Notes under the pieces: generated by a model
Seen by the model: only the letters and a program-made list of their open reading frames with translations
Databases searched by the model: none
Told to the model about the DNA's origin: nothing
Made by a program: the position numbers and the translations under genes
IMG/VR virus record: IMGVR_UViG_3300031578_005165
Span: 1-38,649 of that record
Source: a virus
Reading direction: 5' to 3' (one strand)
DNA length: 38,649 nucleotides
Shown: one piece after another, positions 6,160 through 31,668 of the stretch
Layout of the letters: every line of letters starts with the position of its first letter
How positions within the stretch are numbered: position 1 is the first letter of the stretch

Positions 6160-7098
6160 ATGAGCGACGAGGGATTCACCGAAGGCGGCGCAGAGCCGCA
6201 AGGCACCGCGGCACCGACAGGCGGCGCGCCAACCGCGCAGACGGCCGCGACCGAGATTCGCGAGGCGCTCGAGACCGGCGAACTGACCGAGGCGGATCTC
6301 GACCGCTTCGTCACCGTCACCGTTGACGGCGAGCAGAGGCGCATCAAGGCCCGCGACGCGCTCCGGGACTACACTCTCCGCAGCGCCAGCCATAAGCGCA
6401 TGGAAGAGGCCGCGCGGCTCCGCAAAGAGACCGAGGCCGAAAAGGCGCAGGTGCGGGAGCTCCTCGACACCGTGCGCGACCCCGCCGGGCTCCTCGCCGT
6501 GGCGCAGCACCTCGGGGTGAACCCGAGGCAGCTCCGCGAGCTCATCGAGGCCGAGGAGCGCACGCCGGAGGACGTCAAGCGCGAGCGCGCCCTCGCGGCG
6601 CGCGAAAAGGCCCTTGCCGACCGCGAGGCAGCCGAGAAGCGCCAGCGCGAGGAAGCGGCGGCGTCCGCGGCCGAGAAGCGCGAGCGCGCCAAGTACATCG
6701 AGAGCATCAGCAAGGGCCTCGAAAGCGCCGGGCTGCCCAAGAGCCAGCGCATGATGTCCGAGGTGGCCAAGGTGCTCGCCGCGGCCTTCGACGCGGGCGA
6801 CCGCAGCTTCACGGTGGAGGACGCCGTGCAGGTCGTGCGCGAGGAGATGACGACGCACAGCCGCTCGCTTCTCGGCGACATGAGCCCGGACCAACTGCGT
6901 GCGCTCCTCGGCGACAAGCTCGACGCGGTGCGTCAACAGGACATCGAGAAGGCCAAAGCACACCGAAACGCGACGCGCCCGAAGCCCAATGGGGGACGCC
7001 CGGCAGCGGGTGCAGCGCCGAAGAAGCGCATCCACTCGTCGCAGCTCACGCCCGAGCAATACTCGCGACTGCTGAACGGCGAGGACATCGACGTATGA
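6160..7098 (+). CDS. Scaffolding protein
   Basis: A 312-residue, highly charged and mostly helical protein between portal and capsid genes. The N-terminus is Ala/Gly/Thr-rich and disordered, the middle has long Glu/Lys/Arg/Ala coiled-coil stretches, and the C-terminus is a basic segment followed by a short helix ending NGEDIDV. Scaffolds of P22-like phages are elongated helical proteins whose C-terminal helix-turn-helix binds coat protein. The last 14 residues are encoded a second time downstream at 7387-7431. The start follows GGAGGGA. The stop overlaps the next start (ATGA at 7095). Confidence 0.82.
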   Translation: MSDEGFTEGGAEPQGTAAPTGGAPTAQTAATEIREALETGELTEADLDRFVTVTVDGEQRRIKARDALRDYTLRSASHKRMEEAARLRKETEAEKAQVRELLDTVRDPAGLLAVAQHLGVNPRQLRELIEAEERTPEDVKRERALAAREKALADREAAEKRQREEAAASAAEKRERAKYIESISKGLESAGLPKSQRMMSEVAKVLAAAFDAGDRSFTVEDAVQVVREEMTTHSRSLLGDMSPDQLRALLGDKLDAVRQQDIEKAKAHRNATRPKPNGGRPAAGAAPKKRIHSSQLTPEQYSRLLNGEDIDV

Positions 7099-7100
7099 CC
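7054..7100 (+). repeat. Scaffold 3'-end repeat, copy 1
   Basis: A 47-base segment covering the last 14 codons of the scaffold gene and its stop. A second copy lies at 7387-7433 with five base differences, all synonymous in the scaffold frame. Confidence 0.9.
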
Positions 7101-7313
7101 CGCCGCGCGCTACGTCGGCTCCAGCGTCAGCGCCGGCTAGAGCGCCGGTACGCGAACCACGCTCCTCCCGCAAGGCTCGCGGCAAGGGTATGGAACGCTC
7201 GCGACGCGATGGATGCGTATCGGAGTGGGCTGCCGGCGGCGCTAGACGCGTTCTTTCGCCGCTTGTACCCGGTCGACATGCTGCGGCGAGCGATGGGCAT
7301 CAGCCCGACTTGA
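7095..7313 (+). CDS. Small Arg-rich protein in first duplicated cassette
   Basis: A 72-residue protein, strongly basic in its first half (TRRALRRLQRQRRLERRYA). The ATG overlaps the scaffold stop. The stop lies at the edge of a 77-base repeat (7309-7385). No family recognised. Its location between scaffold and capsid genes, where decoration or capsid-stabilising proteins often sit, and its charge would allow nucleic-acid or capsid-interior binding. This is inference. Confidence 0.65.
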   Translation: MTRRALRRLQRQRRLERRYANHAPPARLAARVWNARDAMDAYRSGLPAALDAFFRRLYPVDMLRRAMGISPT

Positions 7314-7385
7314 CACGCTCCGGCACACCGTGTCACGGTGTGCATGCGCGCTGTGGTGTAACGTCAGCACCCGGTGGAGGCATCC
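7309..7385 (+). repeat. 77-base intergenic repeat, copy 1 (dyad and promoter-like)
   Basis: Identical to 7614-7690 except for four bases, all inside an inverted repeat. In this copy the dyad is perfect: 10-base arms GCACACCGTG / CACGGTGTGC around one T. A TTGACA lies just upstream of the dyad, and an extended -10-like TGGTGTAAC (TGTAAC at 7357-7362) lies 3' of it. It then holds GGTGGAGG. It may be a promoter with an operator, or an RNA hairpin. Confidence 0.85.
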
Positions 7386-7386
7386 G

Positions 7387-7433
7387 GAGCAATACTCGCG
7401 GCTCCTCAACGGCGAGGACATCGATGTCTGACC
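7387..7433 (+). repeat. Scaffold 3'-end repeat, copy 2
   Basis: Encodes the same last 14 scaffold residues and stop as copy 1, with five synonymous differences. There is no start codon or ribosome site to translate it as its own peptide. The next gene starts inside it at 7424. Confidence 0.9.
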
Positions 7434-7618
7434 TTCACCTGACCGACGGCGACTGCACCCTCGCGCGAGCGGCGCTCAACTGGCTCACCGAGGACCCTGC
7501 AACGCGAGGCGACTTCGTCCACAAAGGCATCCCGTGCAACGCTTACGGCATCCTGTGGTCGTTCATCGACAAGGCGCAGGAGTACGCCACCCCAATCGGG
7601 AATCTGACGCTCGCTTGA
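7424..7618 (+). CDS. Small protein in second duplicated cassette
   Basis: A 64-residue acidic protein starting at the ATG inside the copied scaffold tail, with GAGGA about six bases upstream. Sequence features: LARAALNWL, PATRGDF and a C-terminal SFIDKAQEYATPIG segment. It is unrelated to the 72-residue protein in the first cassette although it occupies the same position between the same flanking repeats. No family recognised. It could be a capsid accessory or moron. Confidence 0.6.
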   Translation: MSDLHLTDGDCTLARAALNWLTEDPATRGDFVHKGIPCNAYGILWSFIDKAQEYATPIGNLTLA

Positions 7619-7690
7619 CACGCTCCGGCACGGCGTGCCATGGTGTGCATGCGCGCTGTGGTGTAACGTCAGCACCCGGTGGAGGCATCC
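7614..7690 (+). repeat. 77-base intergenic repeat, copy 2
   Basis: About 95% identical to 7309-7385. The four substitutions change the long dyad of copy 1 into a different, shorter perfect hairpin, GGCACG-G-CGTGCC, while TTGACA, the TGGTGTAAC segment (TGTAAC at 7662-7667) and GGTGGAGG are unchanged. Confidence 0.85.
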
Positions 7691-7877
7691 CCGCGGACAC
7701 GGTTAAACTCCGTGCGGTGCGCAGCAAACAAACCCCAAGGCTCCGTAGCCTCGGGCCCGCTTCGTCGATGAGCCGCCGGTAACCCTCGGGCCCGGTGTGC
7801 TCCACGGAGCCGGTCACGACACGTGAAGGCAGCCGAAGAACCGCCCCGAAACGGGCATTTCCTCGGAGATTTTCACC
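7691..7877 (+). promoter_or_regulatory. Structured leader of the capsid gene
   Basis: 187 non-coding bases. An 8-base inverted repeat (GGCTCCGT at 7739-7746, ACGGAGCC at 7804-7811) encloses two copies of CTCGGGCCCG. Near the end is a small hairpin CCCG-AAA-CGGG (about 7846-7856) followed by a ribosome site GGAG about 10 bases before the capsid ATG. The fold could stabilise or regulate the capsid mRNA. No known RNA family was recognised. Confidence 0.4.
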
Positions 7878-9131
7878 ATGACCGTGACCGAAACTACGCT
7901 CGATGGCTGGTTCAAAGACCGCTACGAGACCAAGGGACGCGACATCGTCCCGGAATTCAGTGACCTCGCCGAGAGCATGGTGTTCTCGGAGTCCGAGAAG
8001 CTCGGCGACGAATACGTCTTCAACGTCCGCGTGCGGCGTGCCCATGGCATGACGTGGGGCGGGCAGACCGCGACGGCGTTCGCGCTCAACGCGGTCGTCA
8101 GCGGCCAGACTGTGCCGGGCCGCGAGAAGGGCTACCAGGCCGTTATGCGCGAGCAGGTCGCGTATGGCGTGGTCAGCCGCGCGCGATCCAGCGTCGAGGC
8201 CTTCGGGTCGGCGTTCGACGACGTCGTCCGCGACATGCGCAACTCGATGTCGTTCTACCGCGAGCTGAACATCCTCTACGGTGGCGACTCGATTGGCACG
8301 CTGACGGGCGCGGGCTCCGCGGCAGCCTCGGTGACGTACGTCATCACCGAGGCGTCTTGGGCCCCCGGCCTGTGGGCACAGATGGAAGGCGCGAGCGTCG
8401 ATGTGTACAGCGCGCCCGGCGGCACGCGGCGCAACACGAACGGCGCGCTCACCATCTCGAACGTCGACTTCGACACGCGGTCGGTGACGCTCACCGGCGT
8501 GGTGGCGGACAACAACGCGATCCAGGCGAGCGACGTCGTCATCCCCTTCGAGGCGGACGCGGCGTGGTTCGACGGCCTTCGCGTGCTTGTGCCGAACACG
8601 GGCACGATGCACAACATCAACGCAGCGACCTACGGACTGTGGCGCGGCAACGGCATCGGCGCGGGCGGCGCGGCGCTGACGTTCGCCAAGGTCATGCGCG
8701 GCTCGGCTCGAGCGGCGTTCCGTGGTGGTCTCGGGCCGCTTACGCTCCGCGTGTCGCCGTACACCTGGAGCGACTTCAACAACGATGCGGCGGCGCTCCG
8801 GCGCTACGCGGCGAAGATGCGGATGGAAGCCGACCTCGGCACCGAGAAGCTCGTGTTCTACGGGCAGACCGGCACCATTGAGATCAAGCCGCACCCGATG
8901 ATCAAGGCCGGCGAGGCCTTTCTCACGGCCGACCGCTACTTCAAGCGCGTCGGCTCGGCGGACCTGACGTTCCGGCTCCCCGGCGTCACCGGTCAGCAAG
9001 AGCGGTTCTTCCGCGAACTGGAGTCGAACGCTGGCTTCGAGCTTCGGCAGTGGTGGGACCAGGCGCTCGTCAGCTTCAAGCCGGCGTGCAGCGTGCTCTT
9101 CACCGGCATCGTCAACAGCCAGGCGATCTGA
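7878..9131 (+). CDS. Major capsid protein (candidate)
   Basis: A 417-residue protein immediately after the scaffold cassette, with its own leader and good ribosome site. It shows features common in HK97-fold coats: a long N-terminal arm, a helix-rich segment, and a beta-rich insertion (about residues 150-240: ASVTYVITEASWAPGLW, ALTISNVDFDTRSVTL). Family assignment rests mainly on size, position and this domain pattern, not on a signature motif. Several hundred copies would form the head. P22-type coats are of similar size (~430 residues) and also carry an inserted beta domain. Confidence 0.8.
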   Translation: MTVTETTLDGWFKDRYETKGRDIVPEFSDLAESMVFSESEKLGDEYVFNVRVRRAHGMTWGGQTATAFALNAVVSGQTVPGREKGYQAVMREQVAYGVVSRARSSVEAFGSAFDDVVRDMRNSMSFYRELNILYGGDSIGTLTGAGSAAASVTYVITEASWAPGLWAQMEGASVDVYSAPGGTRRNTNGALTISNVDFDTRSVTLTGVVADNNAIQASDVVIPFEADAAWFDGLRVLVPNTGTMHNINAATYGLWRGNGIGAGGAALTFAKVMRGSARAAFRGGLGPLTLRVSPYTWSDFNNDAAALRRYAAKMRMEADLGTEKLVFYGQTGTIEIKPHPMIKAGEAFLTADRYFKRVGSADLTFRLPGVTGQQERFFRELESNAGFELRQWWDQALVSFKPACSVLFTGIVNSQAI

Positions 9132-9713: not shown

Positions 9714-9958
9714 TGATGAAGACGGGCTCAGGCTCTCCGGAGATTGCGGCGCTGAAGAGCATCGCAGGCGACGCCAACACGGCTCGACTGGGCCCGTCTC
9801 GCGTCAAAGACAACGCCGGTGCGGCCGAGGTCCTCCGGGCACTCGGTCAGCAGCTCATGGACGAAGCCGACGCCATCGAGGCGGGCGGCGAGGAGTCCGA
9901 AGGCATGGGCGCAGACGCGCTCATGATGGGCGAGGACGACGACGACGAGGGATACTGA
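9713..9958 (+). CDS. Small acidic protein
   Basis: An 81-residue protein with an acidic C-terminal tail (GEDDDDEGY) and a helical centre (AEVLRALGQQLMDEADAIEA). The ATG overlaps the upstream stop (TGATG) and has GGTGGGG upstream; the upstream in-frame GTG at 9701 is less likely. Possibly a head-completion or chaperone protein; no family recognised. Confidence 0.6.
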   Translation: MMKTGSGSPEIAALKSIAGDANTARLGPSRVKDNAGAAEVLRALGQQLMDEADAIEAGGEESEGMGADALMMGEDDDDEGY

Positions 9959-10907: not shown

Positions 10908-13448
10908 ATGGCGACTGACCTAACACTGCGCGCGGCCGGCCTGTACACCGACCCGAACCCGCACACGGAAGCACCGCAGGGCGCGCTACGCGTCGCGGAC
11001 AACGTCGTCATCCGCAGGGCGGGCGTCGCCGAGCCGCGGCCGGGCTTTCGTCCGGAGGGTCTCAGCGGCGGGGCGCGCTACGTCGGAATCTACCCAGCGC
11101 CCACGGGCGACGCTGAGGAGCTCTACGGGCAGACCACGGGCGGGCTCGACGACGACACGGGCGCAGCGGTGCCGGAGCCTGCGTGGACATGGGCAAACCG
11201 CGTGGCGACGCAGGCCATTACGCAGTCCGGCGAATACGCGGGCGCATCGGCGGCGGTCGCTCGGGACGCGCTCTATGTGCCCACCTCCAGCGGCGTGGCC
11301 CGCGTCGTGGACGGAGTCGCCGTGCGTGCAGGGTATCCACGGCTCGGGCAGGTGCCCGGAAGCGCTGCGCTCGACGTGTCCGGGGTTGCTGACGAGAACT
11401 GGCTGCCGACTGACTCTGCGGTCCGCTATCGCGTCTGCGTCGTGCGAGAGTCCGCAGATGGGCTGATCGTCCGATCGACGCCGTCTTCCGACCTCGTCGT
11501 GGCAAACAGCTCTGGCGGTGACCGTCGCGTACAGCTCAGTCTTCGGCACCCTGCGGAGCTCGCCAGCGGCGACACTATCGAGGTATATCGATCAATCGCC
11601 GTGACGCCCTTTACGGCGACTCCTAGCGACGAGTTGTACCTTGCGATGGTGTACGAGCCCGTTGGCGCAGACGTCTCAAGCGGATCATCGATTTTCTTTG
11701 ACATCACAGACCCTGCCGATTTGGGCGCATCACTATACACGAACGCGACGCAGCAAGGCATCCTACAGGCGAATGAGCGGCCTCCTCAGGCCGCGTCAAT
11801 CGCGTTTTTCAATCAGATGCTGTTTTTCGGGCGTGTGCAGCAGCCGCGACAGCTAGTGGTGCGCATGGTCGCGCGTCCGACGGCGGGGCAGACGCTCACG
11901 ATTAACGGGCTCACCTACACCTTTACGGCGTCCACATTCAATGCCGCAACGGGCGACATCCCGCTCAACGCAAACGTTCCGACAATCGTGCGACTGCTGT
12001 GTCTATCGATCAACACCCGGTCACCTGCAACAAACGATGTGTTTATGGCGGGCCACGCGGGCGGCGGCACGATGGTGCTTTATGAGCCGTATCTTGGCGC
12101 CAATGGCGCGTTTGACTTCGTAGGGTCTGCGGCTGGAATGGTCGGGCTCTTCGACCCGCCTTTGGAGACGCGGTCTGGACCCGTCTATGCGCTTTCCGGT
12201 GAGATAGAAGCGAACGCCCACCGCGTGATGTACTCGAAGCTGCAAGAGCCCGAGCACGTTCCTGCGCTGAACTTTGTCGACATTGGATCGCGCTCCGAGC
12301 CCATCCTTGCGATGAGGTCGACGCGGCGTGCGCTCTTCGTCTTCAAGACGGATGGCATCTGGATCATCTCTGGCGACACGCCCGAGACGCTGCGCGTCGA
12401 GCAGATCGACAGCACTGCCCGCTTGCTCCACCCGAAGTCCGTAGCGGTCGGCGGCGACCGCGTCTTTGCGTGGACCGATGCCGGCGTCATCATGCTCTCC
12501 GAGGGTGGCGTCGCCGGGAACCTCAGCGCACCAGCAATCGAGCCCGACCTGCGCGCGATCCAAGTGGCGCTACAGGCCACGACTGACCCGGCCAGTGGCT
12601 CCACGCTCGGATGCTTCCTGCACTATCAAGACGGTGAAGAGCGGTTACTGCTCGGCGTGCCTGCGGCGGTCGGGGATGCCTACGTCGCGAGCGTCTATCA
12701 GTACGACATGCGGACTCAGGGATGGACGCGCTGGACCTCGGGCGACCGCGAGTACAGCGCGGCGACCACCATCGCCGGGCGCATTCTCTTCTCGGGCCTC
12801 GACGCAGACGACCTCGGCGACGTGTGGCGTGAGACGCTCGACAGCGACGAGGCACCTCACGCGGACGTGACGTACACCGACACGATCATCAGCGTCTCGC
12901 AGACCGCGAGCGCGGTCGTCCTGACGCTCACCGGCTCGCGCGCAGACGCCCCCGTCGGATCGTGGGCGTATCAGGCGGCTACGGGCGGGCGCGGTGTCGT
13001 GTCGGCCACGGCGGACGGCGGCGACTCGCCCGACACGGCGACGGTCATTCCGCTGGATGACACGACGTGGGATGCGACAGACGTCGTCTTCTATCAGCCG
13101 GTGGAGCAGTGCATCGAGTGGATCGCGAAGAGCGCGCAGGTGCCCACGGTCACGAAGCACTGGCAGCGCGGCGTTCTGACGTACGAGTCCGACCGGCGCA
13201 TGTACGATGCGACGCTGAGCTTCCGCTCCGACCTCATCCACACGGCGGCATCGGTGACGACCGAGCACACGCTCCAGGATGACGCGCTCCCCGAAGACAT
13301 CCCGTTTCTCACCACGCGCGACCACGCGCGAGCCGCGATCCTCTTTCCGAAGCTCTGCATTTCGCAGGGTGGCGCGCAGTGGTCGCTTTCGGCGCTTCAC
13401 CTCGACTACGAGCTCGGGTCGTCTCGAGCGGGAAGGCGAGGGCGCTGA
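10908..13448 (+). CDS. Tail nozzle / stabilisation protein candidate
   Basis: An 846-residue, strand-rich protein. Repeating blade-like motifs (ALFVFKTDGIWIISGDTPE, VAVGGDRVFAWTDAGVIMLS) suggest a beta-propeller as in nozzle proteins of short-tailed phages. An inserted unit at residues ~326-410 begins GQTLTINGLTYTFTAS and resembles the one in the 9138-9713 product. The start at ATG 10908 is chosen over upstream in-frame codons because GAGGGGTG lies just before it and it clears the upstream gene. The nozzle would form the tail tip through which DNA leaves. Confidence 0.62.
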   Translation: MATDLTLRAAGLYTDPNPHTEAPQGALRVADNVVIRRAGVAEPRPGFRPEGLSGGARYVGIYPAPTGDAEELYGQTTGGLDDDTGAAVPEPAWTWANRVATQAITQSGEYAGASAAVARDALYVPTSSGVARVVDGVAVRAGYPRLGQVPGSAALDVSGVADENWLPTDSAVRYRVCVVRESADGLIVRSTPSSDLVVANSSGGDRRVQLSLRHPAELASGDTIEVYRSIAVTPFTATPSDELYLAMVYEPVGADVSSGSSIFFDITDPADLGASLYTNATQQGILQANERPPQAASIAFFNQMLFFGRVQQPRQLVVRMVARPTAGQTLTINGLTYTFTASTFNAATGDIPLNANVPTIVRLLCLSINTRSPATNDVFMAGHAGGGTMVLYEPYLGANGAFDFVGSAAGMVGLFDPPLETRSGPVYALSGEIEANAHRVMYSKLQEPEHVPALNFVDIGSRSEPILAMRSTRRALFVFKTDGIWIISGDTPETLRVEQIDSTARLLHPKSVAVGGDRVFAWTDAGVIMLSEGGVAGNLSAPAIEPDLRAIQVALQATTDPASGSTLGCFLHYQDGEERLLLGVPAAVGDAYVASVYQYDMRTQGWTRWTSGDREYSAATTIAGRILFSGLDADDLGDVWRETLDSDEAPHADVTYTDTIISVSQTASAVVLTLTGSRADAPVGSWAYQAATGGRGVVSATADGGDSPDTATVIPLDDTTWDATDVVFYQPVEQCIEWIAKSAQVPTVTKHWQRGVLTYESDRRMYDATLSFRSDLIHTAASVTTEHTLQDDALPEDIPFLTTRDHARAAILFPKLCISQGGAQWSLSALHLDYELGSSRAGRRGR

Positions 13449-15699: not shown

Positions 15700-18023
15700 T
15701 GGGCATTCCCCTTATTGGCGGGCTGCTCGACGGCGGCTCCAACGGCAACAAGGCGCGCGAGGAAGAGGAGCGCCGCAAGGCCGAGGAAGCTGCGCGCGAG
15801 GCAGAGGAGGCGGCCGAGGAGCGTCGCGCTGCGGAGGCCGAAGCGGCCGAAGAGCGCCAGGCACAGATGGACGAAGCGGCCGAGTCGCGCCGCGAGTCGT
15901 CGTTGGGCTCTTTCGAGCGACGGCAGGTGCGCGAGGATGACCGCGGTGCGCCCATTCAGCGGCGCGCCCTCGAGTCCATCGCCACGCAGCGAGACGAGCC
16001 GCAGACGCCGGTCACACCGCAGTTCCAGATGAGCATTCCCGAGGATGAGATTCGCTTTCAAGCGAACGTCGACATTCCCGATGATGAGATCCGCTTCACA
16101 CCCAACGCGCCGGCCGAGCAGCCGGACCCGTATCAGCGTGTGCTCGACGCGAGCGCACCGTACCAGCAGGGCGCGGCGGGCGGTCGCGCGGTCAACTTTG
16201 ACGCGCTCGACGCGCAGCAGGACGCCGCAGACGTCGCCAGCGCCTCGCAAGCGCGCGCAAACCTCGGCGGCGGAGGTGCGCCGCCTCCCGTCACGCCGCA
16301 GCCGCAGAGCGGCACCGTGGCGCCTCAGCAGACGACCCCGATGGGCTCCCCCGCATCGGGTCCGGCACAGCCGCCGGGGGCGCAGGAGTCTCCCTCCTCT
16401 CCCCTCGCTCCTCCCGCGCCTCCGGCGGCCGCGCCACTTCCCGATCAACAGCGCGCAGCGGACGCGCGCCAGCAGACCGTGCAGCCGCAGGGCTCGCGGC
16501 TTCCGCCGGACATTCGTACCGCAGCGATGCCGCAGTCCAGCGCGGGTACGCAGCAGGCACTGGACACATCGAGCGAGGACGAGGCGCGTACCGCGCTGCG
16601 TCGTGAGCGCATCCTCAAGGCGCTCGGGTACATCACGAAGATCGGCCTGGGCGCTGGCGCGCTCGCGCTCGACGCACGCGGCGGCAGCCCCGCAGCGGCC
16701 CAGTTCATGGCGGGTGCCGGCGGCATGGTCGGCAACGCCATGATCAACAGCAGTCCCACGCAACAGCAGGCCCGCATCACGCAGGCTCGCGGCGTGGACG
16801 AGCAGCGCGCACGCGGCGCCGAGGACCTGGACCTCCGGCGCATCACGCAAGCCGCGCAAGAGCGGCGCGCGCAGATGCTCGAGGCGCAGCAGGCGCAGCG
16901 GCTCGACCTGGAGTCGCGACGCGTCGGCGCGATGGAGGAAGGCATCGGGCTCCGTGCGGAGCAGGTCGGCGCACAGGCCGAGGCGGCTCGCGCGCTCGCG
17001 GCGCAGCGCACCGCACAGGGTGACATCGCGCGCACCGAGGCCGAGGCGGCGCAGATGGCGCGTGACCCGGAGTCGCCGGTGTCGCGTCAGGCGCAGCAGG
17101 AGCTCCGGGCGCTGATGGAGCGCGTACCGGAAGACGAGCGCATCTCCGACGAGGAAATTGGCGCGCTCTCCGCGGACGCCGCGACGACGCTCTACAACCA
17201 GGTAGCGCGTCGTTACGGGCTCCGCACGCGGCAGACGCAGCGCCGCTCCGGTGAGGGCGGCGGGCCACGCGCCGAGGGCCTCGGGCCGACGCGCAGCTTC
17301 CGCGACTTCGCACAGCGCGAGTACCCACAGCTCCAGGGCATGAGCGAGGCCGAGCGCGAGGCCGCAGTAACGCAGGCATGGTCGCAGCTTTCGAGCGCAG
17401 AGCGGCGCGCGTACGTCGGCGGCTCCGCCATGAGCGACACCCGCGAGGATGACGAGCGAGTGGCACGCGCGAACAACTTGCCCGGCTGGCGCTGGCGCAA
17501 CGGGGACGTGCCGCCGGACGCGGTCACGCTCCGTGCTGGGCAGGATGCGAGCGAGGGTGCGGCGAGCGCAACAGCGAACCTCGGCGACATGCTCCGCATC
17601 GCGGGCCAGATTGGCGCCGGTGACCGCGCGCTCACGGCCATCGGCGAGTCTGAGATTGGCGCGCAGTACCAAGCGGCGCGCAACGCATTCATCGGCTCGC
17701 TCCCTGCGCTTCGGAACACGGGCGTCATCAACGAGGGCGAGTACGAGCGTTTCCGGCGTGAGTTCCCCGACGTCACGGACCTCCGCAGCGCGGGCGCCAT
17801 CCGCAATCAGATCCAAGCCGCTCAGCAGGTCATCGGCCGCGGCTACCGGCTCAAGATGCAGGCGCTCGGCTGGGAGCCCGACTCGGGCGGAGGCGGCGAG
17901 CGCCGCGGCGGCGGAGGCGGACAGACATTCCGTGTGCGGACGCCTCGCGGCATCGCCGTCCGGCCTGACACCCCCGAGGAACGCGCACGTGCCGAGCGCG
18001 CCGGCTTCGAGGTGCTCCGGTGA
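15699..18023 (+). CDS. Internal virion (ejection) protein candidate 2
   Basis: A 774-residue protein. It opens with a hydrophobic MGIPLIGGLLDGG, then a Glu/Ala/Arg coiled coil (residues ~20-70), two copies of an IPxDEIRF motif near residues 110-132, a Pro/Gln-rich linker, a Gly/Ala hydrophobic stretch (IGLGAGALALDARGG, about residues 313-327) and a long Ala/Gln/Arg helical region. This layout suits a protein threaded through the portal. The ATG start overlaps the upstream stop. Function inferred from composition and position. Confidence 0.5.
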   Translation: MGIPLIGGLLDGGSNGNKAREEEERRKAEEAAREAEEAAEERRAAEAEAAEERQAQMDEAAESRRESSLGSFERRQVREDDRGAPIQRRALESIATQRDEPQTPVTPQFQMSIPEDEIRFQANVDIPDDEIRFTPNAPAEQPDPYQRVLDASAPYQQGAAGGRAVNFDALDAQQDAADVASASQARANLGGGGAPPPVTPQPQSGTVAPQQTTPMGSPASGPAQPPGAQESPSSPLAPPAPPAAAPLPDQQRAADARQQTVQPQGSRLPPDIRTAAMPQSSAGTQQALDTSSEDEARTALRRERILKALGYITKIGLGAGALALDARGGSPAAAQFMAGAGGMVGNAMINSSPTQQQARITQARGVDEQRARGAEDLDLRRITQAAQERRAQMLEAQQAQRLDLESRRVGAMEEGIGLRAEQVGAQAEAARALAAQRTAQGDIARTEAEAAQMARDPESPVSRQAQQELRALMERVPEDERISDEEIGALSADAATTLYNQVARRYGLRTRQTQRRSGEGGGPRAEGLGPTRSFRDFAQREYPQLQGMSEAEREAAVTQAWSQLSSAERRAYVGGSAMSDTREDDERVARANNLPGWRWRNGDVPPDAVTLRAGQDASEGAASATANLGDMLRIAGQIGAGDRALTAIGESEIGAQYQAARNAFIGSLPALRNTGVINEGEYERFRREFPDVTDLRSAGAIRNQIQAAQQVIGRGYRLKMQALGWEPDSGGGGERRGGGGGQTFRVRTPRGIAVRPDTPEERARAERAGFEVLR

Positions 18024-19927
18024 GCCGCGACCGCTTCCAGCGCCTCGACATCACCGAGGACTCCAACGTCATCGAGATGCCGGAGCAGCAGGTCACGGGC
18101 AGCGTCGAGCCGTCGCGCGCGGAGCGCATCGTCGGGCTCATGCGCGCGCTCAATCTCTTGCCGGCCGAGTACGAGGACGTCGCGGACCGCGCGGCGGCGT
18201 TCGGTCGTGGCATCGCTGAGGGCGCGACCGCGGGATGGGTGGACGAGCTCGTCGGCGGACTGTCGCAGGCGGTGCCGCCGGAGATGCGAGCAGGTCTTGC
18301 GCGGCTCATGGCTCCCGAGGGCCAGGAAGACGCCTACGGTCGCGCGGCGGCCGACCTCGGGTACTCCGACGTCCGCGACGCGACGCGCCGTCAGCAAGGC
18401 GAAGCGGCCGAGGCGGAGCCAAGTGCGTTCATCCCCGGCGCGGTCGCAGGCGGCGTCGCCACGGGCCGCATGCTCCCCGCTGCTGGCGCTGGGCTGTCGG
18501 GTGGGTCGCGTGTCGCAGCACGCGTGGCGCAAGCCGCTGGCGAGGGCGTGCTCGCCGGAGCGGGCGGCAGCCGTGCGGAAGACGCGCAAGGCATCGCGCA
18601 AGACGCAGCCATCGGCGGCGCCATCGGCGGCGGCATCAGCGGCGGCCTCGCAGCGGTGGGAGGCGTCGGGCGCGGCCTCCGTGCGGCTCAGCGTGGCGTC
18701 ACGCAGACCGCTGACGACGCGGCCCGTGTGTCCGACGCCGTCACGGAGCTCGAGCGCATCGGCAGCCCCATCGAGTCCGACCGCATCCGCTTCAAGCCCG
18801 CGACGCTTCGCGAGGCGCTTGCGCGCGAGCCTGCCGACCCGAGCGCGGTCGACGATGCCATGAACTGGTTTGCGGCCATGCAGGAGCGTATTCGCCGCGA
18901 GTTCGTCGACCAGGGCCGCTACGGTCGCAGCGGACGCGCGGCGCTGGCCAACCTGCGTTCAGAACTGAATGACCAGGCTGTCCGCGCACAGCGCGCTATC
19001 GAGCGCGGCAACGTCGGCGAGGTCTACGCCGCGCTCGACCAGGGCAAGCGCGCCATCGGCCGCATGCAAGGCCGCGTCGGCCCCATGCGTGGCCGCGACC
19101 CGAACCCGAACGCAGACCCGCAAGCGGCCGAGGCGCTGCGCGAGTGGTACGGCGAGGTTCGCGCGGCGCTCGAGCGCCCCGAGTGGGGCGGCGCATCCGC
19201 GCTTCAGCGCGGGGACAACCCGGCGTGGACGGCGGCGATTCCCGCCCGACGCATCGCGGCTCGACGCTTCTTGGAAGACTCGCCCGAGCGCCCCAACGAG
19301 TGGGACCCGATCCAGCGCGCCAAGCGGCCCGCGGTCGAGTCCACCATGCAGCGCGCCGCGGAGCCCGCGGAGCAGGACTACGTCGACGACCTCGTGCGCT
19401 ACACCCGCACGCGTGCCGACCTCGTGCAGCGGCTCGGCAGACACTACGGCTCGCCGCTCGCCGAGACGGCGGCGGACCGCGCAGCGCGCGCGACCCCTGA
19501 GGGCACGCCAGGCGGCTACCGCGATGCGGCGACACGCGTGGACGATGCGGTCGACTCCGCGCGGGTCCAGCGCGCGCAGGAGCTTGCCGAAGACGTCGAT
19601 CGCATCGTGTCCGCGGCCCGCAATCCCAGCACGACGCGTCGCGTCGGCCAGGTGCTCGCGCGCTCACCATACGGACGCGCGGCGGCCACGACTGGCGATG
19701 TCGCAGGCCAGCCGCTCGAGCGCATCGGCGAGGTGGGCACCGCAGCGACGTCGCGCGGCGTGCCGAGTGCGGCCAGCGCGTCAGCGGCTACGATGCCGCG
19801 TGCGCAGCCTGTCGCCGATGACGGGCCCGAGGTGAGCGACGACGACTACGAAGCCATGATCGGCGAGTCCGGCGGAGACGTCAGCGACGACGACTATGAA
19901 GCCATGCTTCAGGAGAAGATGCGATGA
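18020..19927 (+). CDS. Internal virion (ejection) protein candidate 3
   Basis: A 635-residue protein starting at a GTG that overlaps the upstream stop (GTGA). It has Gly-zipper-like stretches (PGAVAGGVATGRMLPAAGAG, GGAIGGGISGGLAAVGG; residues ~138-220) that could insert in membranes, then a helical Arg/Ala/Glu body. The C-terminus carries two copies of the acidic motif VSDDDYEAM about 16 residues apart. Membrane-active Gly-rich segments are a feature of ejection proteins that form a conduit in the cell envelope. A lytic transglycosylase motif is not seen. Confidence 0.5.
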   Translation: MSRDRFQRLDITEDSNVIEMPEQQVTGSVEPSRAERIVGLMRALNLLPAEYEDVADRAAAFGRGIAEGATAGWVDELVGGLSQAVPPEMRAGLARLMAPEGQEDAYGRAAADLGYSDVRDATRRQQGEAAEAEPSAFIPGAVAGGVATGRMLPAAGAGLSGGSRVAARVAQAAGEGVLAGAGGSRAEDAQGIAQDAAIGGAIGGGISGGLAAVGGVGRGLRAAQRGVTQTADDAARVSDAVTELERIGSPIESDRIRFKPATLREALAREPADPSAVDDAMNWFAAMQERIRREFVDQGRYGRSGRAALANLRSELNDQAVRAQRAIERGNVGEVYAALDQGKRAIGRMQGRVGPMRGRDPNPNADPQAAEALREWYGEVRAALERPEWGGASALQRGDNPAWTAAIPARRIAARRFLEDSPERPNEWDPIQRAKRPAVESTMQRAAEPAEQDYVDDLVRYTRTRADLVQRLGRHYGSPLAETAADRAARATPEGTPGGYRDAATRVDDAVDSARVQRAQELAEDVDRIVSAARNPSTTRRVGQVLARSPYGRAAATTGDVAGQPLERIGEVGTAATSRGVPSAASASAATMPRAQPVADDGPEVSDDDYEAMIGESGGDVSDDDYEAMLQEKMR

Positions 19928-25205: not shown

Positions 25206-25630
25206 CACGACCTCCTCGCCATCCTGTAAGCCGCACGCAACGCGGCGTCGTCCTCCGAAAACACCTGCCACCGACATCCCGGCGCCAGCAACGCCGGGTG
25301 CATCCGCTCGCGCGGCACCCGTGACGCGAGCACGACGGGCCGCCCGAGACACCGCGCCATTGTCACCTCGGCCACGAGGCCGAGCGACCCGGCATCGTCC
25401 GGCACCAGCGCCACGAGCACGTCGCACGCGCGGATGTCGTTGAGCCACCCGGTCGCGATGGCCTCGCGCTGCGACTGCGGCAGCCCGAGTCCGAGGCTCC
25501 CGTGCGCGGCGACGGCGTCGATCCACTCGGCTCCGACCACACCCACGCCGAGCTCACGCAGCGCATCTCGAGCGACGCGGGCGCGGGGTAGTTCCGCGCT
25601 CGGCGCGCTCAGGTATGCCCGCGGCTTCAC
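25205..25630 (-). CDS. Nucleoside 2-deoxyribosyltransferase-like protein
   Basis: A 141-residue protein with a Rossmann-like pattern: strand (AYLSAPSAE), a helix, then the segment IRACDVLVALVPDDAGSLG followed by GLVAEVTMARCLGRPVVL. That last run (E in a G-x-x-x-E-x-x-x-A context) matches the catalytic-Glu helix of deoxyribosyltransferase-fold proteins. These transfer deoxyribose between bases or act on related nucleotides. Near a MazG-like gene it suggests nucleotide-pool handling. The GTG start overlaps the upstream gene. The exact substrate cannot be told. Confidence 0.6.
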   Translation of the reverse strand: MKPRAYLSAPSAELPRARVARDALRELGVGVVGAEWIDAVAAHGSLGLGLPQSQREAIATGWLNDIRACDVLVALVPDDAGSLGLVAEVTMARCLGRPVVLASRVPRERMHPALLAPGCRWQVFSEDDAALRAAYRMARRS

Positions 25631-26043
25631 GACTCACCCCGCAGGATGGCGTCGAGGCGATCAACGACCCAGCCCTTGGGTGCGCGATGCGGCGCCGGCC
25701 CGTGTGCGAGTGAGTCCCGCAGCGCCTCCAACTCGCGCCGCAGCCGGCCGCGCTCGTCGGCGGCGGCGTCCCGCTCCTGCTCGGCATCCAGGCACGCGAG
25801 GCGCCAAGCGGTGCGGTCGCGCTCGCACTGTCGAAGATCGTCGTCGCTCAGACTGTCGCCCGGCGACTCCGTGCCCACGAGCTCGAGCCCGGTCACGAAG
25901 ACCGCGATCGGATGCGTCTCGCCCACGTCCACAGACGCGTAAGGCCCGCTCGCGCTCGATCTGATGGACTCGACGCGGCCAGTGGTGCCGGCGTACATCC
26001 CGCCGACGCAGCGCACGGTGGCGCCGGGTGCAATTTCACGCAT
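25627..26043 (-). CDS. Protein with N-terminal KOW/SH3-like segment
   Basis: A 138-residue protein. Residues ~5-50 read like a small beta-barrel (GATVRCVGGMYAGTTGRVES), similar to KOW-type motifs. A charged coiled coil follows (ERDRTAWRLACLDAEQERDA). The start overlaps the end of the MazG-like gene. Possibly an RNA- or nucleotide-binding accessory; unproven. Confidence 0.55.
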   Translation of the reverse strand: MREIAPGATVRCVGGMYAGTTGRVESIRSSASGPYASVDVGETHPIAVFVTGLELVGTESPGDSLSDDDLRQCERDRTAWRLACLDAEQERDAAADERGRLRRELEALRDSLAHGPAPHRAPKGWVVDRLDAILRGES

Positions 26044-27787: not shown

Positions 27788-28513
27788 TCAAACGTCAAAG
27801 GTGATGGGCGCGTCCACGTCGACCGGCTCCAAAGTCGGGAGCTCGCGCAGTCCATCGACGGCCGCAATCCGGCGGAACGCGCGCAGGATGTCGACCGCCG
27901 CACCATGTGCGCATGTCCACGCGTCACCGTCACACCGCGACTCGCGCGGGCCGCTACCGTCCTTTGGAAGCCGCACGATGCGGCACCCAACGCGTACCGG
28001 CATGTCAGGAAGCGCGTCCGAGATTAGCGCATCGTAGATGGCGCATTGGAGCACCATGCTCCGCGGCGAGAGCCGCTTTGATGTCTTGAAGTCGACGATC
28101 TCCGGACCATCGAAGACGGCGAGCATGTCCAGCGTTCCCGCGAGTCGCAGGCGCTCGGACACGAGCGGCCATTCGAGCAGGAGCGGCGTGTGAGTCGTGC
28201 GTGCGTGCCAGTCGAGGAACGCGGCGAAGCACGTGTCAGCGGCCGTCTGATCGGGCGAGTCCCACAGCGCCGGCTCCGGTGGAAGCCCGAGGTAGTGCGC
28301 CTCGATCGCCTTGTGCACGGCGGACCCAATCTGCCGGGCCTCCTTGGCGATGCGGAACGCGTGACGGCCTTCGTACGCGTACCAGCGAAAGAGCGCCTCG
28401 CGCTTCTCGGGCTTGTCGAGCGCGTCCGCGATCTGCGACGCGCTGAGCGGCTTCGAGCCGTCTGCCAGGCGGTACCCGTCAGACGGGCGGCCGGTGCCGA
28501 TTCTCAGAGCCAC
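27788..28513 (-). CDS. PD-(D/E)XK exonuclease (RecB/Cas4-like)
   Basis: A 241-residue protein. Motifs of the nuclease fold are seen in order: IGSAVHKAIEAHY (His67), Asp129 in AGTLDMLAVFDG, IVDFKTSK (Asp141, Lys143) and LQCAIYDAL (Gln156, Tyr160). This is the usual partner of Bet/RecT proteins, chewing 5' ends to give single strands. The GTG start overlaps the upstream gene by 10 bases. Exact polarity cannot be told from sequence. Confidence 0.88.
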   Translation of the reverse strand: MALRIGTGRPSDGYRLADGSKPLSASQIADALDKPEKREALFRWYAYEGRHAFRIAKEARQIGSAVHKAIEAHYLGLPPEPALWDSPDQTAADTCFAAFLDWHARTTHTPLLLEWPLVSERLRLAGTLDMLAVFDGPEIVDFKTSKRLSPRSMVLQCAIYDALISDALPDMPVRVGCRIVRLPKDGSGPRESRCDGDAWTCAHGAAVDILRAFRRIAAVDGLRELPTLEPVDVDAPITFDV

Positions 28514-31374: not shown

Positions 31375-31402
31375 TTGACGATGACGTAGGCATCATTAGA
31401 AT
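31375..31402 (+). promoter_or_regulatory. Promoter of the small early gene block
   Basis: TTGACG (31375-31380), 16-base spacer, TAGAAT (31397-31402), in an unusually AT-rich stretch. The spacer holds an imperfect dyad (ATGACG near its start, CATCAT at its end) that could be an operator. Transcription would start near 31409, 38 bases before the ATG at 31447. It lies in the 128-base gap 31319-31446, which holds no gene. Confidence 0.7.
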
Positions 31403-31446: not shown

Positions 31447-31668
31447 ATGACGACGCGACGGTTTGACATCGAGATCGACGGCAACCGACTGGGCCACGTG
31501 TGCGCCAAGAGCGCGTGGGATGCCGCCGCGCGATTCGTCGCCGGCCCCTGGAGCGGCGGCGGGGACGTCGACGCGCTCCGGTACGAGTGCCCGGTGGGAC
31601 GCGACGGGTACGAGTACGCGCTCGGCGAGACGCGCTTCGTCGTGCGCCTCATCAAGAGGCCGGCGTGA
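31447..31668 (+). CDS. Small early protein upstream of the ribozyme
   Basis: A 73-residue protein following the promoter and a GAGGATAGAGACC leader. Strand-rich with Trp/Tyr (RFDIEIDGNRLGHVC, then RYECPVGRDGYEYALG). Its last codon and stop (TGA 31666-31668) lie inside the hammerhead ribozyme's stem I. No family recognised. Confidence 0.65.
   Translation: MTTRRFDIEIDGNRLGHVCAKSAWDAAARFVAGPWSGGGDVDALRYECPVGRDGYEYALGETRFVVRLIKRPA

Follow-up and report, generated by a model that had tools for sequence, protein, structure and literature searches.

The DNA between the scaffold-type head gene and the major capsid gene of the virus record IMGVR_UViG_3300031578_005165 carries two small open reading frames. 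Each is preceded by a copy of the 3' end of the scaffold gene and followed by a copy of a 77-nt element. The second scaffold tail has no gene body in front of it and differs from the first at synonymous positions exclusively. We consider it rather probable that this arrangement is a scar, left when two phages of one group that had diverged recombined out of register and an additional small gene was gained together with the tail of its donor neighbour.

Layout of the scaffold-to-capsid cassette

The complete record (38,649 nt, one strand) was analysed and is called the window here. Its ends share exactly 127 nt, which suggests a circular contig assembled with k = 127, a word size longer than the 77-nt repeat. 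For comparison we used two relatives: L004 (IMGVR 3300031539_000231) and L009 (contig JALOPS010000011.1 of a Gemmatimonadaceae MAG). The features discussed are the following.

6160..7098, +, scaffold-type head gene, 312 aa; gene order portal-scaffold-major capsid protein (MCP); 44% identity to L004 4661-5602
7051..7100, +, tail copy 1, the scaffold's last 15 codons; it carries the GGCGAGG Shine-Dalgarno sequence of ORF1 and the overlapping ATGA where ORF1 starts
7095..7313, +, ORF1, 72 aa, basic, predicted with low confidence to be all-helical; homolog in L004
7309..7385, +, 77-nt element, copy a; TTGACA at 7310-7315, perfect 19-nt palindrome at 7324-7342, followed by a 5'UTR-like hairpin
7384..7433, +, tail copy 2, the body-less "orphan" scaffold tail, 88% identity; Shine-Dalgarno sequence and start of ORF2
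7424..7618, +, ORF2, 64 aa, orphan protein; searches of the collections gave no relatives
7614..7690, +, 77-nt element, copy b, 95% identity to copy a
7691..7877, +, 5' leader of the capsid gene, structured; conserved in L004 and L009 alike
7878..9131, +, major capsid protein, 417 aa; PHROG 14242 major head protein, E 5.8e-8; 66% identity to L004, 63% to L009
26898..27758, -, RecT-family annealing recombinase; PF03837, E 6.4e-29; phrog_2780
27788..28513, -, PD-(D/E)XK exonuclease, RecT partner; PF12705, E 1.1e-7; phrog_298

The name "scaffold" was given to 6160..7098 from its position; the search for a family match to this gene yielded none. Between the scaffold and capsid genes, the order is ORF1, 77-nt element, 50-nt scaffold-tail copy, ORF2, 77-nt element and a leader of 187 nt. 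The direct repeats 7309-7385/7614-7690 (77 nt, 4 differences, 95%) and 7051-7100/7384-7433 (50 nt, 6 differences, 88%) are the strongest close-spaced repeats within the window, and they are spaced by 305 and 333 nt, respectively, with both modules in the same order. An earlier note on this DNA had described a two-module cassette of scaffold tail, small ORF (72 or 64 aa) and 77-base dyad repeat, and this description was confirmed.

Since the repeat copies are 88-95% identical rather than exact and an independent contig has the same layout, an assembly duplication could be ruled out. This contig, IMGVR 3300031565_004791 from another sample, contains both modules and is 99.95% identical to the window, with 7 mismatches over 13 kb and none in the cassette. 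A contig from a further sample (3300031669_005468, L007) is 100% identical to the window and stops at its position 11966, which corresponds to window position 7385, the final base of copy a of the 77-nt element. Beyond this base, a two-module genome continues with GGAGC and a one-module genome would continue with CCGCGG, the sequence 3' of copy b. Since k = 127 exceeds the length of the repeat (77 nt, with mismatches), a branch of the assembly graph is expected exactly here if both kinds of genome coexist, and the contig end is suggestive of such a mixture. It could also be a coincidental break in coverage, the value k = 127 being taken from the end overlap of the window itself.

The orphan scaffold tail

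Both tail copies encode PEQYSRLLNGEDIDV* (asterisk, stop codon). They differ by CCC/CCG, CGA/CGG, CTG/CTC, CTG/CTC, GAC/GAT and GTA/GTC, so that 6/6 differences are at third positions and synonymous. The earlier note had counted five differences in the last 14 codons, all synonymous; this count holds, and it becomes six when 15 codons are compared. In simulations of random substitution, an all-synonymous outcome had a probability of 5.5e-4 (1 in 1,800) for five differences in 14 codons and 1e-4 for six in 15. We thus agree with the note that tail copy 2 had evolved at the end of a real scaffold gene prior to its arrival at this site: it is the 3' end of a gene lacking its body, with divergence of the coding type.

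The last 36 nt of each of the 61 predicted genes were searched for a second copy in the whole genome, with 489 interior gene segments serving as a control. The scaffold tail alone gave a strong hit (31/36 matches; next best 24/36). None of the 489 control segments reached 28 matches, which rules out a chance repeat.

The duplication of the tail had been recognised in the two-module reading of the earlier note, which missed that the tail serves as ribosome-binding site and start of the next ORF. The scaffold tail encodes ...NGED..., and the corresponding DNA, GGCGAGGAC, is the Shine-Dalgarno sequence of the following gene, whose start codon overlaps or adjoins the scaffold stop. Nearly all genes in this phage are packed in this manner, with a tail-carried Shine-Dalgarno sequence and a start at the stop codon. 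Because the tail also provides the next ORF with its ribosome-binding site and start region, it travelled with ORF2, and an ORF arriving with the tail of its donor's neighbouring gene has a working start on arrival.

The two small ORFs

ORF1 and ORF2 share no sequence, in agreement with the statement of the earlier note that they are unrelated. The homolog of ORF1 in L004 (5599-5814) lies in the same place and has 51% identity, with mismatches at the three codon positions numbering 27/21/38; the structure model of ORF1 has a pLDDT of 67. ORF2 has a codon score of 0.24 per codon; phage genes score 0.32 +/- 0.12, and off-frame reading gives -0.32. The ORF2 frame is open upstream to 7190, and the coding signal is absent from this extension. 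Both the codon score and the GC3 of 0.83 fit the phage's own genes. The collections searched contained no homologs of ORF2, and family and structure searches gave no reliable match for either ORF. The stop codons of both ORFs (cTTGA) are located inside the 77-nt repeat copies.

The 77-nt element

Both copies of the element open with a perfect TTGACA inside the stop codon of the preceding ORF, in the same place as a TTGACG in the relatives, just past the last small ORF. The best -10 candidates are weak: TGtCACGGT and TGcCATGGT at a spacing of 18, with poor hexamers (CACGGT/CATGGT), the former being a candidate extended -10 at 7331-7339 in copy a. A scan of the cassette for consensus promoters reported no site, and no terminator-like site was found there on the + strand. 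The two copies of the dyad repeat announced by the earlier note are present, and the palindrome is perfect in copy a only (CACACCGTG-T-CACGGTGTG, 7324-7342); copy b has 3 mismatches to it and could form a shifted hairpin, GGCAC-GGC-GTGCC. From these motifs, the element is probably a promoter with a dyad (a possible operator) and a 5'UTR. The label "operator" used before captured the dyad and appears too narrow.

All 4 differences between the copies cluster in a 10-nt stretch of the dyad core (P 0.004). Outside the core, 0/68 sites differ, vs 6/16 third positions of the tails (Fisher 2e-5), which would mean that either the element is strongly constrained apart from the dyad or its copies have been homogenised. 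Folded as RNA, the 77-nt copies show no stability beyond that of shuffled sequence (z -0.8 and 0.3). Searches of the cassette region for tRNAs found none, and those for Rfam families gave sub-threshold matches only (c-di-GMP-II-GCG, E 0.27, far under the gathering score). A match of window 7672-7720 to the tRNA-like mascRNA (E 0.009, 26 bits vs a gathering score of 42.5) is probably due to chance. Elsewhere in the window, a promoter-like TTGACG-N16-TAGAAT occurs at 31375-31402 (+), in the gap before the small gene 31447-31668, with GATG/CATC arms in its spacer.

Relatives with two, one or no small ORFs

Relatives were sought by capsid, tail, leader and repeat in phage records, in IMG/VR and in 395 genomes of the phylum of the Gemmatimonadaceae MAG. 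Besides the near-identical contigs, only L004 and L009 were found, giving three lineages in total. L004 has the order scaffold, ORF1 homolog, TTGACG-N17-TACATT, leader and MCP, without ORF2; the start of its ORF1 homolog overlaps the scaffold stop as in the window. In L009, the scaffold stop is directly followed by TTGACG-N17-TACGAT, leader and MCP, without any small ORF. The spacer of the 17-spaced promoter contains an inverted repeat in both relatives. One-module relatives, which the earlier note had proposed to look for, are thus represented by L004 (ORF1 only), and L009 has no module at all.

Across the three lineages, the slot between scaffold and capsid holds 2, 1 or 0 small ORFs. The idea of an exchangeable slot is borne out as far as presence and absence are concerned; a swap of cargo between the same 77-nt repeats is not, the repeat occurring in no other phage found. 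It has two copies in this genome and is otherwise confined to the near-identical contigs, so that no genome with cargo other than ORF2 between the repeats was found among the relatives searched. A donor phage with a scaffold gene followed by ORF2 was not encountered in IMG/VR, either by pattern or by the ORF2 protein, among the three lineages found of the group.

The capsid leader is conserved at window 7737-7877, L004 5863-6000 and L009 5862-6000, with a common fold in which, judged from only 3 sequences, 12/46 predicted pairs are changed on both sides and the region before the capsid start lies inside the structure. It is a candidate cis-regulatory RNA for capsid translation; Rfam contains no match above threshold.

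Origin of the cassette

We propose that one parent had the order scaffold-ORF1-element-leader-capsid and that the other, an inferred donor, had a scaffold gene with a synonymously diverged tail followed by ORF2 and probably by its own copy of the element. In the recombinant, the 77-nt element of the first parent would run at its 3' end directly into the final 50 nt of the scaffold gene from the second, the two sharing no more than "CC" at the junction (7384-7385). Such a join would keep both small ORFs and leave one 77-nt copy in front of ORF2 and one in front of the capsid leader. The orphan tail would have been retained because it gives ORF2 its Shine-Dalgarno sequence (GGCGAGG) and start codon. 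Recombination between the 77-nt copies would delete ORF2 again, and the two-module state is probably unstable in the population. RecT/exonuclease pairs promote joining at short or imperfect homology, an activity that fits the two-base junction. The phage encodes such a pair, and RecT may have been the joining agent, the link being circumstantial. The synonymous divergence of the tails, the coding signal of ORF2, the relatives with a single or no small ORF, the orphan tails of the L009 phage described below and the RecT and exonuclease genes all support out-of-register recombination as the origin. Speaking against it are the unsuccessful searches for a scaffold-ORF2 donor and for any ORF2 homolog, the absence of the 77-nt repeat from L004 and L009, and the poor -10 hexamers with no hit in the consensus scan; the similarity of the 77-nt copies could moreover reflect homogenisation instead of function.

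The identical order and similar spacing (305/333 nt) of the modules and the 95% identity of the 77-nt copies would also result from a local tandem duplication of the tail-ORF1-77-nt unit, after which the second ORF was replaced or diverged completely. We regard this as unlikely. Once duplicated locally, a tail without its gene body would drop out of scaffold translation, and six purely synonymous differences are therefore unexpected (P about 1e-4). In addition, ORF1 and ORF2 share nothing between well-kept flanks, and the divergence of ORF2 would require far more time than the tails indicate.

Two further explanations centre on the 77-nt repeats. They could be a small mobile or site-specific element, or the target of one, with ORF2 as cargo, as might be suspected from their sharp ends, palindromic core and direct orientation around ORF2. 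With two copies in the genome and none in contigs other than the near-identical ones, with no recombinase gene in or beside the module, and with a scaffold tail alongside, which is superfluous for an element that has ends of its own, we find this explanation very improbable. The repeats could alternatively have been selected for dosage, two tandem promoter copies raising capsid transcription and the small ORFs being passengers. A capsid promoter is indeed expected at this place, as both relatives have a good one there (TTGACG-N17-TACRWT), and the 77-nt copies are constrained outside the dyad. However, the -10 hexamers are poor, and the scaffold tail with its synonymous divergence and the coding signal of ORF2 are left unexplained. 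As an origin of the cassette, dosage seems unlikely to us; as a consequence, it is compatible with the recombination scar.

Comparison with known routes of gene gain

Juhala, Hendrix and colleagues reportedly described moron genes in lambdoid and other tailed phages. Like a moron, the cassette has a small gene present in one phage and absent from relatives, between conserved head genes and likely with its own promoter: scaffold and MCP are adjacent in L009 and separated by ORF1 only in L004. Of a promoter and terminator of its own, TTGACA and the dyad were seen, with a poor -10 and no terminator-like site on the + strand. The foreign base composition of morons is not seen in ORF2. Unlike morons, the gene follows a duplicated, synonymously diverged tail of the upstream gene and lies between two copies of an element serving the capsid gene.

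Phage mosaicism arises by illegitimate or RecT/Red-type short-homology recombination. The cassette resembles mosaicism in general in that the join falls at a gene boundary and involves hardly any shared sequence, in a phage encoding RecT and an exonuclease. It differs in that both versions have been preserved next to each other, as a dated and readable scar. Illegitimate recombination in phages is discussed in PMC3203893.

In T4-like phages, recombination at the intergenic copies of PeSL (promoter-stem-loop) cassettes reportedly inserts or removes small genes (Arbiol 2010 and Comeau 2014, cited in PMC4503421). The similarity lies in promoter-plus-stem-loop copies between genes and in the turnover of small genes. 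PeSLs are found in the early region, whereas the present element is in the late/head region, has two copies, is unrelated in sequence as far as tested and is accompanied by a coding-tail scar. PeSLs have several near-identical copies between many genes; here there are two in the genome. Gene content differs among the relatives (2/1/0 ORFs), which lack the 77-nt element, and the contig break at 7385 is suggestive of a variant. The SAS/ESAS sequences of Cluster K mycobacteriophages, with one 13-bp consensus at 11-19 sites (PMC3203893), likewise place a repeat with a ribosome-binding site just upstream of small genes, partly with inverted repeats. By contrast, the tail repeat derives from the end of one given gene and has two copies, and instead of a common consensus before many starts, 1/61 gene tails had a second copy.

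The routes of gene gain seen in the cassette are already broadly known. What is new is a recurrent scar of gained genes, the orphan tail with its exclusively synonymous divergence; the novelty is one of detail and not of kind.

Further orphan tails

Phage C167, to which L009 belongs (39,017 nt with a 43-nt direct terminal repeat, read as L022 and L023), contains two further body-less tails of the same design, which argues that the process recurs. In L022, 1927-1973 is a 91% copy, RVHGWYDDEEGEV, of the end of gene 844-1083 (source 1039-1085); 3/4 differences are synonymous, and the tail precedes an ORF at 1970-2147. In L023, the minus-strand tail RLTADEIDRLEGA at 18558-18599 stands before a gene starting MTKSQD and matches 17823-17864/18876-18917, with full copies of the family on both sides (17823-18086 and 18876-19151). 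The survey was small, covering the window, C167, the L004 contig, lambda, D29 and phiC31. Lambda and D29 gave no orphan tails, phiC31 one match that is not a gene tail with stop, and the L004 contig none, its 5' piece having no predicted genes to scan. A possible leftover start of the exonuclease gene in front of the L022 tail (1914-1931, MIIGSG vs MIVGSG) matched at 10/18 DNA positions and was dropped as evidence.

The gain of small genes between essential head genes has mostly been inferred from end states. For one step, the orphan coding tail supplies direct evidence, recording the join site, a donor that was a diverged relative and immediate expression from its own ribosome-binding site. 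With three scars in two related phages, it also provides a searchable signature (a body-less gene tail with synonymous-only divergence, then a start codon) by which recently gained genes can be counted in phage genomes of any collection. As a generalisation that we advance tentatively and still regard as doubtful, gene tails containing the next gene's ribosome-binding site might act in this phage group as docking sites for small genes, annealing recombination where tail and start meet adding ORFs again and again and leaving orphan tails of 40-50 nt, and flanking regulatory repeats making some additions reversible in a population.

Several other repeats were observed in these genomes. Between two paralogous genes (258 nt, 86%) in L023 17823-19151 (-) lie two unrelated genes and the orphan tail of the same family. 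Tails encoding DAILRGES* or DAILRGAP*, with a Shine-Dalgarno sequence inside, end different genes in L022 (1914-2147, 3870-4031) and in the window (25627-26043, -), a possible further case of a shared tail. In addition, imperfect acidic repeats of ~47 nt (DDDYEAM-like) at window 9861-9952 and 19812-19906 end two structural genes.
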